From assembly GCA_017474455.1 (NCBI GenBank), contig JAFVHP010000028.1, positions 1 to 59,120 on the forward strand: a stretch of DNA of 59,120 nucleotides, read 5' to 3'. This document shows, in pieces, positions 53,710-58,712 of the stretch. The translations under genes and the position numbers were made by a program. The stretch's first letter is position 1, and the number at the start of each line of letters is the position of its first letter. The notes under the pieces are model-generated. The model was not told the origin of the DNA. It saw only the letters and a list, made by a program, of their open reading frames with translations, and ran no database searches. The stretch is from Lachnospiraceae bacterium (lineage in GTDB: Bacteria > Bacillota > Clostridia > Lachnospirales > Lachnospiraceae).

Positions 53710-54758
53710 TCAGTTAGCTGTTATCTTCTGGTCGCCTGTGGACCAGACGTGTTTTTCTTTTGCGGCGGCGGGCTTATTTTGCGCCATAACGCCCGCTAAC
53801 GGATGCGGCACGTATGGCTCTTCCAACCAGGCAATTTCGTCACTGGTCAGCTCCAGTTCCACTGCCTTTGCCGCGCCTTCGATATGGTGAAGCTTCGTCG
53901 CGCCGACGACAGGGGATGTTACCTTGGTGAGCAGCCAGGCGAGAGAGACCTCCGTCATGCTCACGCCGTGCTTTTCTGCCAGTTCTGCAACACGGGCGAT
54001 GATCACGTTATCCTGCGCGGCCGTGGCGTCATATTTGAATTTTGCATAGGCATCTTCCTCGGCACGCTTCGTCCCGCCTTCTCCGGGGAGTCTTGAAAGC
54101 CTGCCGGATGCCAGGGCGCTGTAGGGCGTAAGAGCGATATTCTCTTCATTGCAGTAAGGAACCATTTCCCGTTCTTCTTCGCGGAAGATCAGGTTGTAAT
54201 GCCCCTGGATGGAGACGAACTTTGCAAAGCCTTCCTTTTACGCCAGGGCATTGGCCTTGGCGAGCTGCCAGGCAAAGCAGTTGGAAATGCCGATATATCT
54301 GGCTTTCCCTGCCTTCACGATACGGTTCAGGCCCTCCATGATATCTTCGATGGGCGTCTGCCAGTCCCACATGTGGTAGATATACAGATCCACATAGTCC
54401 ATGCCGAGATTCTTAAGGCTTGTGTCGATCATGTTCCCGATGTGCTGCTGGCCGCTCACGCCTTTTTCGATCTCATCCTGCGTTCTCGGCAGGAACTTGG
54501 TGGCAACGACCACTTCGTCACGCTTCGCAAAATCCCTCAGGGCACGGCCTACATACTGCTCGCTGGTGCCGCTCTGATAAGCGATGGCCGTATCATAGAA
54601 GTTGACGCCGAGCTCCAGCCCCGCTTGATGATCTCTCTTGAATGCTCCTCGTCAATAGTCCAGCTGTGCTGGCCTCGCCCGGCATCCCCGAATCCCATGC
54701 AGCCCATGCAGATCCGGGATACGGTCAGGTCTGAATTGCCAAGTTTCGTATATTTCAT
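53710..54758 (-). pseudogene. Aldo/keto reductase, broken by a frameshift and a stop
   Basis: Intact N-terminus from ATG 54758 (KYTKLGNSDLTVSRICMGC) to REIIKR, where one base is missing in a G-run near 54629; restoring it reads GLELGVNFYDTAIAYQSGTS. The frame then runs through VVVATKFLPRTQDE and YVDLYIYHMWDWQTPIEDIM until an in-frame TAA at 54236-54238, after which KEGFAKFVSIQGHYN continues in the same frame to 53710. So there are two lesions in an otherwise complete NADPH-dependent AKR of about 350 residues. Most likely non-functional. Confidence 0.88.
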
Positions 54759-54811
54759 AAGACAGTTATTCCTTTCTTTTACTGTAATTGATATCGATCG
54801 CTGTCCGTCTT

Positions 54812-55435
54812 TTACCTGCCCAGCAGCCGGATCAGGCAGCTGTAGGTGAGTTCATAAATACTTTGATATATGTAGTCGATCCCTGCTTCCTTCATGGCGG
54901 CCCTCTGTTTTTCTGTGACTGCTGTATACGGGTATATCCCAAACATGAAAGGGTAGAAGGTATAAATGAAGTTCCGGATCTCTGCCGCACTCATGTCCGG
55001 ACAGAACTTTGTGAGAAGCATGCGCATAAGCTGCATGGAACGTCCGTATGATTGTTTGAAGTCTGTCAGCAGCTCCTGGCGGCTGTTTGCTTCCATATCG
55101 TAATTGTTCATGGAAAGAAGTTTTAAGAGCTGTTCCCGTCCTGATAGAGACGAAGCGATCTTGTCTGATAACTCTGCTTTCGTCATCTGCTCATTGCCAT
55201 TCAGTATGGCAGTCAGGTCTTCATTCCAGCGGTCGTATTCCCTTTGAAAGAGTCCCAGAAAGATCTCTTCCTTTGTTTCAAAGTAGTTATAGATGGTGGG
55301 ACGGGAAAAGGACGTGAGATTTCCGATCTCCTTCAGCGTGATCTCCCGGAAACTCATCGTCTGATAGAGCTGCTCACAGGCATTGATGATCTCTTCCCGC
55401 TTCTGCGTGATCTGTTCCAGTGTAACTTTTCTCAT
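54812..55435 (-). CDS. TetR-family regulator
   Basis: 207 residues. N-terminal helix-turn-helix: REEIINACEQLYQTMSF, EITLKEIGNLTSFSRPTIYN with YFETKEEIF after it. The C-terminal helical domain has no recognised ligand class. First gene of the minus-strand redox cluster. Two copies of CTGACAnCGTGTCA lie in its promoter (55466-55516), so it is very probably autoregulated and controls the AKR-flavodoxin genes downstream. Confidence 0.92.
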   Translation of the reverse strand: MRKVTLEQITQKREEIINACEQLYQTMSFREITLKEIGNLTSFSRPTIYNYFETKEEIFLGLFQREYDRWNEDLTAILNGNEQMTKAELSDKIASSLSGREQLLKLLSMNNYDMEANSRQELLTDFKQSYGRSMQLMRMLLTKFCPDMSAAEIRNFIYTFYPFMFGIYPYTAVTEKQRAAMKEAGIDYIYQSIYELTYSCLIRLLGR

Positions 55436-55465
55436 GATTCAAGACCTCATCACTGTTCACATATG

Positions 55466-55516
55466 CTGACATCGTGTCAGTATCCTTATTATGCGTGCAC
55501 TCTGACACCGTGTCAA
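55466..55516 (-). promoter_or_regulatory. TetR promoter with two palindromic operators
   Basis: On the minus strand: TTGACA (55516-55511), 17-base spacer, CATAAT (55493-55488). Operator 1, CTGACACCGTGTCAA (55502-55516), covers the -35. Operator 2, CTGACATCGTGTCAG (55466-55480), lies just past the -10. The two share TGACAnCGTGTCA, an odd-length palindrome with centre spacing of 36 bases. Confidence 0.85.
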
Positions 55517-56151
55517 TATGTTTCGAATACTTATTTCCTGCTCATTGTGCAAATATGTACAAAGTCACAAAAGGGTTGGTGAATAAATACGGATTTATTC
55601 ACCTGCCCGGAGACGCGCATATCAGTTCTGATCGACATACACATATTGAATACTTCATTATTGACAGCCTATATGTACTGTTTTGATCCTTGCTGGAAAG
55701 AATATACATATTGAAGACCTTTAATAGGGAAATCAGTATTGGGTGCCCGATGACAGTATTGCCGTGATATACATATATAGTAGAGAAGAAGTGTGCTTCA
55801 ATATGTGAATCATCAGGTCAGCCTGCAGCCTGAGAACCGATCGACCTGTGTAATGCCGTCTTATCATATGTATTATTCGGATACGTATTGATCAGTGGTA
55901 CAGACATGATACTTATTCTATAATTATTAATATGTATTTTGGGCTTCCGGGACAGAAAACCGTACATATCAGGTTTTCAATTTTATGGATTCAGGCTGTA
56001 TAAAGACCCCGAGGCCAGGGCGGCAGCCATAACCGCAGCAACAATTCTCAACAAAGGCAGCAGCAACGACCGCAGCATTACCGAAGCAAAGACCGCAGTA
56101 AAAACAGCAGTAACAGTGACAGCATTGATGAAAGACATGAGGGCACGAAAA
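55517..56151. other. AT-rich intergenic region with ACATATTGAA motifs
   Basis: Composition changes abruptly to AT-rich between about 55530 and 55940. Copies of ACATATTGAA occur at 55641 and 55706 and inverted at about 55798, with TTGATC or TGATCG phrases 15-25 bases before. The same motif pair occurs at 14164-14420. From about 56010 to 56120 the sequence becomes a GCAGYAAC-type degenerate repeat. The open frame from 55939 into the next gene is not supported by an RBS. Confidence 0.55.
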
Positions 56152-56655
56152 ATGAGCGGAAATAATCAGATCCAGATGCCGCAGATGCCGAAGGAAGCGG
56201 CCTACGGCCTTGTGGAACAGTTCAGGACGCTGGGAAAGCGTGTTGCCTTCCCGGGGCATGATATCGTCCTTGACCCGGAGAACGGATGCCTGCAGTTTGA
56301 GCTCAGGGATCCGTGGTATACCAATATCCCGGTAGCATGTGTGGAAGACATCAAACTTACGCTGGACGGCAGGGAGATACCCGCGGACAGCATCGAATTC
56401 GTGATCAGGGATATGGCCATTCCCTTCCGGTACGCAGTGAATCTTCACGAGCTCATCTGGAGCATGGGCGAGATCGCTGTTATACGGGCGAAAACAGACG
56501 TTTCCGGACTGAAGGCCGGCAGCAGCTGCCGGATGGAACTGGAGTTTGAGATCCGGACACCCTTTGAGGGATACCATCTTCCGAACAACCGGATACGGTA
56601 TCTGTTTGACGAGACAATGACGTTTGTCGGGAAAGAAGGGGGGATGCAGTCATGA
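56152..56655 (+). CDS. C-glycoside deglycosidase beta-subunit-like protein (DUF6379)
   Basis: 167 residues from ATG 56152 (GAGGG 9 bases upstream); longer in-frame starts would add a low-complexity Ala/Thr extension. Beta-sandwich pattern of the CGDB/DUF6379 domain: FELRDPWYTNIPVACVEDIK, LTLDGREIPADSIEFVIRD, LIWSMGEIAVIRAK, GLKAGSSCRMELEFEIRTP and a closing strand. In characterised enzymes this small subunit forms a complex with a TIM-barrel alpha subunit and together they cleave the C-C bond of 3-oxo-C-glycosides. The next gene, overlapping by 4 bases, is such a TIM barrel. Family call is by pattern; substrate unknown. Confidence 0.75.
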   Translation: MSGNNQIQMPQMPKEAAYGLVEQFRTLGKRVAFPGHDIVLDPENGCLQFELRDPWYTNIPVACVEDIKLTLDGREIPADSIEFVIRDMAIPFRYAVNLHELIWSMGEIAVIRAKTDVSGLKAGSSCRMELEFEIRTPFEGYHLPNNRIRYLFDETMTFVGKEGGMQS

Positions 56656-57452
56656 AAAGAGGGATAAGCCTTTACAGCTTCAGCGGAGACATCCAGACCG
56701 GCGCCATGACTGTGGAAGACGCGATCCGGTACAGCGCGGAGCTGGGAGCCGACGGTATAGAGATCGTAGCCGAACAGCACCTGCCCGGCTGGCCCAACGT
56801 GAGCGCGGACAGGCTGCTTTCCATCAGAAGGCTCTGCAGCGAGCTCGGACTGGAGATATTCTGCTTCAGTATTTACCTGAATTCACTCAACCGTTCCGAC
56901 AGGCCGGCGACCGACGACGAATACGTGGAAATGATGAGAAGGGGCATCGCCGCCTGCATGGTCCTCGGAACAAAGATCATAAGGCCCGCGTATTTCCCCA
57001 AGTCGCCCGAACACCTGGCTTCGCTGGTCGAACGCTGCATTCCCATGCTGAAAGACGCGGGAGTCGTCTGGGCAGTGGAACTGCACGCCCCGTTCCCGCC
57101 GGCGTTTTATACGCAGACACTGGAAGCGGTCGATTCACCCTGGTTCCGGCTGATCCCGGATTTCTCCTGCTGGCAGAAAGCAGGCGCGGCGGGACACTTC
57201 CAGGCGAACGACCCGTCCACGCTGATCCCGCTCCTCAAATGGACGGTGCACATCCATGCCAAAGGGCATACCTTCGATGAAAACGGCGAAGAACCCAACA
57301 CGCCTTATAAAGAGCTGATCGCCATCCTGAAGGAACACGGTTACGAAGGCAGCATCGTGGCGGAGAGCGAAGGCTGGATCTTCAATTACCATCCGACGAA
57401 AGAAGTGACGAAGACGCACTTCGAGCTGCTGAAAAGATACATAGACGCATAG
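56652..57452 (+). CDS. TIM-barrel sugar isomerase/epimerase-like protein, probable C-deglycosidase alpha subunit
   Basis: 266 residues, AP endonuclease 2/xylose isomerase-like barrel. Predicted divalent-metal ligands: Glu143 (WAVELHAP), Asp170 (LIPDFSCW), His202 (VHIHAKGH) and Glu238 or Glu240 (VAESEGW). His145 near Glu143 is a candidate acid/base. Start ATG overlaps the beta-like gene stop (ATGA). Alone it would be annotated as a sugar phosphate isomerase/epimerase, but paired with a DUF6379 gene it fits the alpha subunit of C-glycoside deglycosidases. No oxidoreductase making the 3-oxo sugar and no transporter lie in the window. Confidence 0.8.
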   Translation: MKRGISLYSFSGDIQTGAMTVEDAIRYSAELGADGIEIVAEQHLPGWPNVSADRLLSIRRLCSELGLEIFCFSIYLNSLNRSDRPATDDEYVEMMRRGIAACMVLGTKIIRPAYFPKSPEHLASLVERCIPMLKDAGVVWAVELHAPFPPAFYTQTLEAVDSPWFRLIPDFSCWQKAGAAGHFQANDPSTLIPLLKWTVHIHAKGHTFDENGEEPNTPYKELIAILKEHGYEGSIVAESEGWIFNYHPTKEVTKTHFELLKRYIDA

Positions 57453-57464
57453 TACTGAGGACAG

Positions 57465-58091
57465 ATGGGAGAAGGGGAACAGAAACTTTACCCGGCGGTG
57501 ACGGCTCTGACAGCCGTTAACGTGGTTATATTCTTCGCAGGGCTTATCATCCGGCCGCTGGGTGATCTGTTTTATACAAAAGGGATCCTGGACAGTGCCG
57601 CGCTGTTTGCCGGCGGCGAGTGGTACAGGCTCATTACCTCCATGTTCCTGCATGCAGATATGAACCATCTGGTATCCAACATGCTGGTGCTGTTCTTTGC
57701 GGGCGGCGAGGTTGAAAAAAGGACGGGGACCTTCTCCTTCGTCATCCTGTATTTCCTGACCGGCCTGTGCGGCAATCTGCTTTCTGTCCTGAACAGTGTC
57801 CGGCTTGCGGAGCGTCACATGTCCCTTGGCGCGAGCGGGGCGGTATTCGGAATGCTTGGCGCCCTCGCCCTGTTCACGTTCCTGAACAGGAAGAACCTGC
57901 AGAGGGGATCGCTTATGAGGCTCGGGTTCGGCATCGCGCTCAGCCTGTATGCCGGAAGCGTGACCCCGGCTAACGACCAGACAGCACACATCGGCGGCTT
58001 CATAAGCGGTATAATATATGCGGCGGCAATAAGCCTGATCCCCGGGCAGCGCAGCCCGCGGGACGGGGACCGTGACAGGACATACAGATAA
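57465..58091 (+). CDS. Rhomboid-family intramembrane serine protease
   Basis: 208 residues, six helices. WYRLITSMFLHADMNHLVSN contains the L1-loop and HxxxN motif of helix 2, SLGASGAVFGMLGAL holds catalytic Ser124 (GASG) and AHIGGFISG holds His175, so the Ser-His dyad is intact. Cleaves membrane-protein substrates within the bilayer. Starts 13 bases after the C-deglycosidase alpha gene, so it may be cotranscribed although unrelated in function. Confidence 0.92.
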   Translation: MGEGEQKLYPAVTALTAVNVVIFFAGLIIRPLGDLFYTKGILDSAALFAGGEWYRLITSMFLHADMNHLVSNMLVLFFAGGEVEKRTGTFSFVILYFLTGLCGNLLSVLNSVRLAERHMSLGASGAVFGMLGALALFTFLNRKNLQRGSLMRLGFGIALSLYAGSVTPANDQTAHIGGFISGIIYAAAISLIPGQRSPRDGDRDRTYR

Positions 58092-58127
58092 TAGAAGCAC
58101 GATAATAATGAAAAAAGGAGCAGTGAA

Positions 58128-58538
58128 ATGAAAAAAGACGACTGCATTTTCTGCAGGATAGCAAACGGTGAGATCCCTTCGCGTACGGTATATGAAGACT
58201 ATGCCGTCAGAGTCATCCTTGACCTTTCCCCGTCGACCAGGGGCCATGCCCTGATCCTCCCCAAAGACCATTTCGATGACCTGTATGAGATCTCGGATGA
58301 ATATCTGATCCATATAGCGGCAGTGTCGAAAAAGGTCGCGCTTCTCATGAAGGAAAGGCTTGGGACCGATGGTCTCAACATCATCCAGAACAACGGGGAA
58401 ACAGCCGGCCAGACGGTAAGGCATTATCACATGCACTGCATTCCCAGATACCAGGGAGACGGCCAGGAAATGCTCTGGGAGCCGCACACCCTTCCGGACG
58501 GGGAAATGGATGAGATCCTTAAAAAGCTGACTGATTGA
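58128..58538 (+). CDS. HIT-family hydrolase
   Basis: 136 residues. N-terminus DCIFCRIANGEIPSRTVYED is typical of the HinT/HIT branch. The catalytic histidine triad is HYHMHCIP. Hydrolyses nucleoside phosphoramidates or dinucleotide substrates. RBS AAAGGAGCAG. Confidence 0.95.
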   Translation: MKKDDCIFCRIANGEIPSRTVYEDYAVRVILDLSPSTRGHALILPKDHFDDLYEISDEYLIHIAAVSKKVALLMKERLGTDGLNIIQNNGETAGQTVRHYHMHCIPRYQGDGQEMLWEPHTLPDGEMDEILKKLTD

Positions 58539-58624
58539 CAAACCGGAGGTGCTTAAGTATAATCTTAATGCTTACAGAAGATATGTAGGCGAATGAACTG
58601 AATATTATCAATTGGTTCAGGCGA

Positions 58625-58712
58625 GGAGAAATACTCAAGAGGCTGAAGAGGCGCCCCTGCTAAGGGTGTAGGTCGGGAGACCGGCGCGCGGGTTCAAATC
58701 CCGCTTTCTCCG
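58625..58712 (+). tRNA. tRNA-Ser(GCU)
   Basis: Acceptor stem GGAGAAA (58625-58631) pairs with TTTCTCC (58705-58711), discriminator G58712. The anticodon loop CTGCTAA (58657-58663) carries GCT. The long variable arm GTCGGGAGACCGGC and T-loop GGTTCAAATCC complete a class II serine tRNA. CCA is not encoded. An ACCGGCAG...CTGCCGG hairpin follows. Confidence 0.95.

Follow-up and report, generated by a model that had tools for sequence, protein, structure and literature searches.

A divergent, lidless gene pair of the C-glycoside deglycosidase type in a Lachnospiraceae genome with 33 beta-subunit domains

The 59,120-nucleotide stretch of Lachnospiraceae DNA analysed here (contig JAFVHP010000028.1 of assembly GCA_017474455.1, all positions 1 to 59,120; hereafter the window) carries two short overlapping genes, and they raise the question of whether a metal-dependent barrel with no lid domain and no sugar-oxidising enzyme encoded beside it can be a C-glycoside deglycosidase (CGD), and if so, of what kind. 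The first-pass annotation had placed at 56152..57452 a DUF6379-like protein and a TIM barrel gene overlapping by four bases, and had likened them to the two subunits of CGDs; both genes were found at those positions, joined by ATGA, and the PF19906 match, the solved relatives and the fold ranking all agree with that type. The pair is assigned here, with a probability of about three in four, to the heteromeric Mn2+-type C-glycoside deglycosidases (CGD/CGE family), as a 3-keto-glycoside beta-eliminase. Its features are as follows.

56152..56655, + strand: CGD beta subunit (CGDB/DUF6379), 167 amino acids, PF19906 match, start codon uncertain
56652..57452, + strand: CGD alpha subunit, metal-dependent TIM barrel without lid domain, 266 amino acids, PF01261 match
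56652..56655, + strand: ATGA overlap read from the sequence, the beta stop and alpha start sharing four bases
56317-56319, + strand: codon of beta Tyr56, equivalent of DgpB Tyr39, aligned with the second Tyr of DgpB YYRG
57078..57086, + strand: motif ELH, metal ligand E143 and catalytic base H145, E and H in 70/70 other aligned CGD alphas (roles from PMC8563793)
57159..57161, + strand: metal ligand D170, 70/70
57255..57263, + strand: motif HAK, metal ligands H202 and K204, 70/70 each
57363..57371, + strand: metal ligand E238, S239 (aromatic in 70/70 other aligned CGDs) and E240, partner of the catalytic His, all by alignment

The beta protein matches PF19906, 'C-glycoside deglycosidase beta subunit', at E 3.5e-9 and 36.9 bits, above the Pfam cut-off of 27.6, so that the DUF6379 likeness held up in a profile search; all six distinct solved sequences that it matched, up to E 1, are CGD beta subunits. 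Its start at 56152 is a guess, the same frame being open from 55939, and the first 40 residues of its predicted structure are of low confidence. The alpha protein scores 86.8 bits against PF01261 (xylose-isomerase-like TIM barrel) and is closest among solved structures to DgpC (1.3e-32), a Deinococcus CGD (5.2e-26) and DfgA (8.7e-24). Only two of the ten distinct solved sequences that it matched are not CGDs: at 3.6e-5 the structure 4ovx, which carries the deposited name xylose isomerase domain protein, and at 0.0066 a D-tagatose 3-epimerase. The alpha structure model is confident, and the 13 solved structures ranking highest against its predicted fold are CGDs. The adjoining of the two genes with a four-base overlap is a feature expected of CGD/CGE. 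In a 78-row tree the window alpha and 70 CGD alphas are set apart from seven other barrels at 100/96, and the barrel does not fall among ordinary epimerases, a placement that had been named as a check on the assignment. The 25 rows labelled 'ext' and the seven outgroup rows of this tree were selected by hand, the 'cong' rows include two from G053 (same order, other genus), and a barrel at L015:10836-11756, whose match to the alpha profile was weak, was excluded from the alphas and later used as an outgroup. Loci L042-L052 and an incomplete second copy of a G025 gene were not used in the later counts and trees.

In AgCGD2 the Mn ligands are Glu147, Asp179, His269, Lys271 and Glu305, and His149 acts as the base in partnership with Glu307 (PMC8563793). 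All seven are kept in the window alpha (E143, D170, H202, K204, E238, H145, E240), as they are in the 34 alphas of the genome and 12 others (46/46) and throughout the CGD alignment (70/70); the earlier statement that four metal ligands look intact was right as to their integrity and short by one in number, AgCGD2 having five. On the beta side, Tyr39 of PuCGE is required for the cleavage of C-glycosides and matters little for O-glycosides (PMC10628242); the corresponding position, Tyr56 in the window, is invariant in two beta alignments of 17 and 27 rows. By analogy with these enzymes, a DgpA-like dehydrogenase encoded elsewhere would oxidise C3 of the glycoside's sugar, the metal held in the alpha barrel by E143, D170, H202, K204 and E238 would bind the 3-keto sugar, H145 aided by E240 would take the C2 proton, and the aglycone bond would be broken by beta-elimination while beta Tyr56 holds the aglycone phenolate. 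Judged from its sequence, this real, divergent and lidless pair is probably active as such an eliminase; its true substrates would be C-glycosides, and it may cleave O-glycosides as well.

Several observations weigh against this assignment. No NCBIfam model matches the beta protein, the alpha protein reaches 17.9 bits where the NCBIfam cut-off is 200, and the beta protein has the lowest PF19906 score among the genome's 33. The margin by which CGDs outrank 4ovx in fold is small (30.4 versus 29.1). In the same unrooted 78-row tree the window alpha stands outside the 70 other CGDs (95/93), between them and the outgroups, whose end branches are 1.1-2.7 long; long branches also occur in the beta tree and in the outgroup-free alpha tree, neither of which gives the window pair a supported position. 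A basal position among CGDs is not claimed for the window alpha in view of these outgroup branches and of approximately unbiased (AU) tests that did not reject its grouping with DfgA-like rows (p-AU 0.276) or with DgpC-like rows (0.352). The lid domain, common in CGDs and not defining for them (EuCGD has none), is absent: 32 residues separate D170 from H202, where lidded rows have 80-111 and the 11 other rows without a lid have 34-41, and PuCGD loses its activity when its lid is truncated (PMC8563793). The loops that replace the lid in EuCGD are present only in part, the compensating loop (R111-V138) counting 27 residues in the window, 32 in all 11 of the DfgA-like rows and 22 in most of the others (48 of 59), and the beta7-beta8 insertion being absent by eye. 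Between the two active-site Glu residues stands S239, where 70/70 others have Y, F or W, and at the position of G205, 60 of the 70 other CGD alphas have F or Y. S239, G205 and the missing lid point to another pocket, as far as an alignment can tell, and do not demonstrate another chemistry; because the lid is missing and the pocket altered, the aglycone probably differs from that of DgpBC. Finally, among the seven outgroup barrels one from Armatimonadetes (L111) has all seven catalytic residues and the equivalent of R111 while no beta gene was detected across its locus of 14.7 kb, the other six lacking at least two of these eight residues. Catalytic residues alone are thus no proof of a CGD, and they carry less weight here because this outgroup barrel shares all seven. 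The L111 protein itself (L111:7001-7771, 256 amino acids, a TIM barrel 21% identical to the window alpha) is a candidate single-chain eliminase.

What stands out is the repertoire to which the pair belongs. In the genome (G000; 2.62 Mb, completeness 96.55%, contamination 1.3%), 14 contigs (C6, C10, C11, C16, C17, C19, C21, C23, C26, C30, C39, C41, C42 and C46) together carry 33 CGDB (PF19906) domains and 34 alpha domains. The loci fall into about 28 groups and are for the most part distant paralogues; the median pairwise identity of the 34 alphas is 0.288 and the highest 0.774. Chimeric assembly was considered as the origin of the 33 copies and rejected on the low contamination, the distance between alphas and the GC content (0.49-0.55 in the genome's own stretches L009-L032). 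Four loci encode alpha and beta in a single open frame, in both orders:

L010:11428-12843, L016:15572-17029 and L022:10017-11462: alpha-beta fusions, each a single open frame
L016:7440-8852: beta-alpha fusion, single open frame

A beta-alpha fusion is also found in the solved CGD of Microbacterium testaceum (8qrz), and the four natural fusions lend indirect support, by analogy, to the complex that the window's alpha and beta proteins would form. Two arrangements elsewhere in the genome may be recorded in passing. At L029:8492-11210 (C41:49491-52209) one beta gene lies between two alpha genes whose products are 68.7% identical, as if the beta subunit were shared, and the protein at L023:11545-14112 belongs with four others of its cluster to a set of five related proteins close to CGD loci; in the one that was scanned, an AraC-type DNA-binding domain is combined with a GH39-like part.

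This 33-fold repertoire is the highest among the genomes examined. Within the genus (62 genomes) CGDB occurs in seven, with counts of 33, 9, 5, 2, 2, 1 and 1. Among 391 further genomes drawn evenly from the order, 15 had a CGDB match (14 above the cut-off), with at most two each, and among 397 further genomes drawn from the phylum three had one; these draws overlap and score rich genomes only in part, this genome showing 11 there. When 20 genomes picked for earlier matches were recounted, which covered part of the genomes with matches in the family draw, the next highest count was 14, and 14 control genomes had none. A literature search, which did not extend to supplements and preprints, turned up none that exceeds Catenibacillus decagia in its number of CGD loci. 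Other CGDB-rich Lachnospiraceae are G505 (14), G025 (9) and G539 (8); in G025, eight of the nine are packed into about 46 kb of a single contig, in contrast to the scattered set of the present genome.

The substrate of such an eliminase has to be oxidised, and the window's contig has no match to PF01408 (Gfo/Idh/MocA), the search having been for this family and not for other oxidase families such as CarA-type GMC. The absence of a neighbouring oxidoreductase had been remarked on as unlike described clusters; the absence is real and the distinction falls away, a missing oxidoreductase neighbour being the rule in this genome because none of the 33 CGDB loci has a PF01408 match within 2 kb (two have one within 5 kb and six within 10 kb, some loci being near contig ends). 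In Catenibacillus, too, dgpA is reported to be separate from dgpBC (PMC11170127). There are 15 PF01408 matches in the genome, and four of these proteins were compared with solved structures. Those on C21, C26 and C51, 45-48% identical to one another, have DgpA or DgpA1 as their best match (8.4e-27, 1.9e-21 and 5e-25), and the fourth, on C11, also matches DgpA best and more weakly (9.1e-17). Shared oxidases are plausible because DgpA is described as oxidising various C- and O-glycosides (PMC11239390), and the suggestion that the sugar is oxidised by an enzyme encoded elsewhere gains plausibility from the three DgpA-like proteins on other contigs, which could act in trans.

Import offers a lead of another kind. 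DUF3502, presumably the sugar-binding protein of ABC importers, has 21 matches in the genome, one of them in a short frame of 87 amino acids, and 12 of these matches are found no more than 5 kb from a CGDB domain, where random placement, which ignores genome structure, gave a mean of 2.3 and a maximum of 8 in 5000 draws. Counted from the other side, a DUF3502 match occurs within 5 kb at 13 of the 33 CGDB loci; there is none on the window's contig.

The pair's neighbours are the following.

54812..55435, - strand: TetR-type regulator, divergent from the pair (PF17929/PF00440)
57465..58091, + strand: rhomboid protease gene (PF01694), a neighbour outside the system, starting 13 bases past the alpha end

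The TetR gene is a possible candidate regulator of the pair, and an inverted repeat at 55463-55483 may be its operator; the repeat adjoins a promoter-like TTGACA-17-CATAAT on the - strand, 5' of the TetR gene (stretch 55463-55516). A consensus scan of 54700-58700 found seven promoter-like sites (4.4 expected) and nine terminator-like sites (3.4 expected), none of them attributable to the alpha/beta pair. At the end of the HIT gene downstream, 58535-58563 (+ strand) matches TTGACA-17-TATAAT at 12 of 12 bases. On the - strand of the window, 53710-54165 and 54238-54513 encode an aldo/keto reductase that is apparently broken: the product of the former matches only the C-terminal part of PF00248, and that of the latter resembles, by its translation and not by a domain scan, an earlier part of the same enzyme.

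With the window alpha alone as query, no orthologue was found in a database of genome contigs (genome_contigs), in 60 congeners, or in 396 genomes drawn from the family, where up to six candidates per genome were scored, so that the orthologue of a CGD-rich genome could be missed (at least one congener recurs in this draw). The best match across the congeners and family genomes was 37% identical over 176 residues and about 30% at full length. A search with a three-row alignment reached at least 60 loci in Enterococcus, Lachnospiraceae, Sphingomonadales and others; among the matches listed, identity in the best segment was 22-36%, the exception being a fragment (L109) with 55% over 53 residues. 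In nine congener loci with the HIT gene, examined over a flank of up to 1.5 kb and less in some, neither alpha nor beta was present (0/9), and in one congener locus (L141) the rhomboid gene adjoins the HIT gene without either of them. It is likelier that the pair was gained in this lineage than lost elsewhere, and acquisition is considered likely because no orthologue was found in congeners and not on account of base composition. The AT-rich region that had been offered as possibly acquired does exist (GC about 0.39 over 55400-55999, versus 0.543 in the window), and it does not show acquisition; it is mostly the intergenic stretch between TetR and beta, and the pair itself, at a GC of 0.563, is not AT-rich.

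The most substantial alternative is that the pair acts on 3-keto O-glycosides (from plant O-glucosides or the ends of oligosaccharides) and leaves C-glycosides alone. 'C-glycoside deglycosidase' would in that case be no more than the name of a family, and the 33 loci would be an oxidise-then-eliminate route for ordinary glycosides. PuCGE acts on both kinds of glycoside, and Bitter et al. discuss how the wide distribution of these enzymes squares with the scarcity of C-glycosides (PMC10628242). The lid is absent, as it is in the Agrobacterium O-glycoside beta-eliminase AtOGE, two pocket aromatics are changed, and DUF3502 lies close to 13 of the 33 loci. Against these stand the kept equivalent of beta Tyr39, a residue important for C-glycosides and of little import for O-glycosides, the presence of a beta subunit where AtOGE is described as having none and as using His as the first ligand (PMC10628242), and a window contig with no DUF3502 match; the alternative is a distinct possibility short of being the expected outcome. 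That the alpha protein is an ordinary sugar epimerase or isomerase, with a beta-like protein beside it by chance, would suit its PF01261 score (fourth-highest in the genome, above other CGD alphas), its branch towards the outgroups in the unrooted tree and the beta-less outgroup barrel with all the catalytic residues, but CGDs are far closer in sequence and come first in fold, epimerases ranking behind them in both comparisons, and the overlapping beta gene encodes a protein that scores above the cut-off, so this is very improbable.

It is also unlikely, if slightly less so, that the pair is a decaying CGD copy whose function has been lost. It is the most divergent copy in the genome, with changed pocket residues, no orthologue found in 60 congeners and a broken aldo/keto reductase nearby; on the other hand neither frame is interrupted, both look coding by a score whose training set was the window together with other parts of this genome, the seven catalytic residues, Tyr56 and Trp103 are all kept, the ATGA coupling is intact and the alpha model is confident.

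The genome's 33 CGDB loci and 34 alphas, all with the catalytic residues (34/34), form a natural test panel on which C-glycoside specialists for many polyphenols could be told from a general alternative to glycoside hydrolases. The isolation of the window pair is not special, as the 33-fold repertoire is; short and divergent with an intact active site, the pair is a good case for the role of the lid and of the pocket aromatics. A broader conjecture, tentative and rather doubtful, is that this bacterium has rebuilt glycoside catabolism on oxidation followed by beta-elimination, in which a small number of broad glycoside 3-dehydrogenases would supply about 33 eliminases of differing pockets across the chromosome, some of them tied to ABC sugar importers, with the window pair as a deep, minimal, lidless branch that would have its own substrate class.

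Among known systems, DgpB-DgpC of strain PUE (PuCGD/PuCGE) shares with the window pair the alpha/beta organisation, the metal and catalytic residues and the Tyr39-beta equivalent, and DgpC is the alpha protein's best match; the window pair differs in having neither a lid nor dgpA alongside, and in having W242 for Tyr303 and S239 for Tyr300 of PuCGE, counted from the alignment. DfgA-DfgB of Eubacterium cellulosolvens (EuCGD) has a longer compensating alpha loop and, by eye, a beta7-beta8 insertion that the window lacks; the window alpha is 26-29% identical to seven DfgA-like alphas and lies outside the DfgA clade in the tree, although a grouping with it is not rejected (AU p 0.276). The alpha protein of the Deinococcus aerius CGD (8qvc/8umc) is longer (347 residues) and is taken as lidded, with 58 residues between two aligned stretches that are separated by five in the window. 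AtOGE, described as unrelated in sequence to CGE, resembles the window alpha in its lidless barrel, catalytic His, Mn site and proposed chemistry, and differs from it in lacking a beta subunit and in using His as its first ligand, where the window has E143 and a beta gene (PMC10628242). The closest genomic parallel is Catenibacillus, with several dgpBC clusters per genome located away from dgpA; C. decagia is reported to have six dgpBC clusters, DfgAB homologues and 11 DgpA homologues (PMC11170127), compared with 33 CGDB domains here and, among four compared of 15 Gfo/Idh/MocA proteins, three that are DgpA-like and a weaker fourth.
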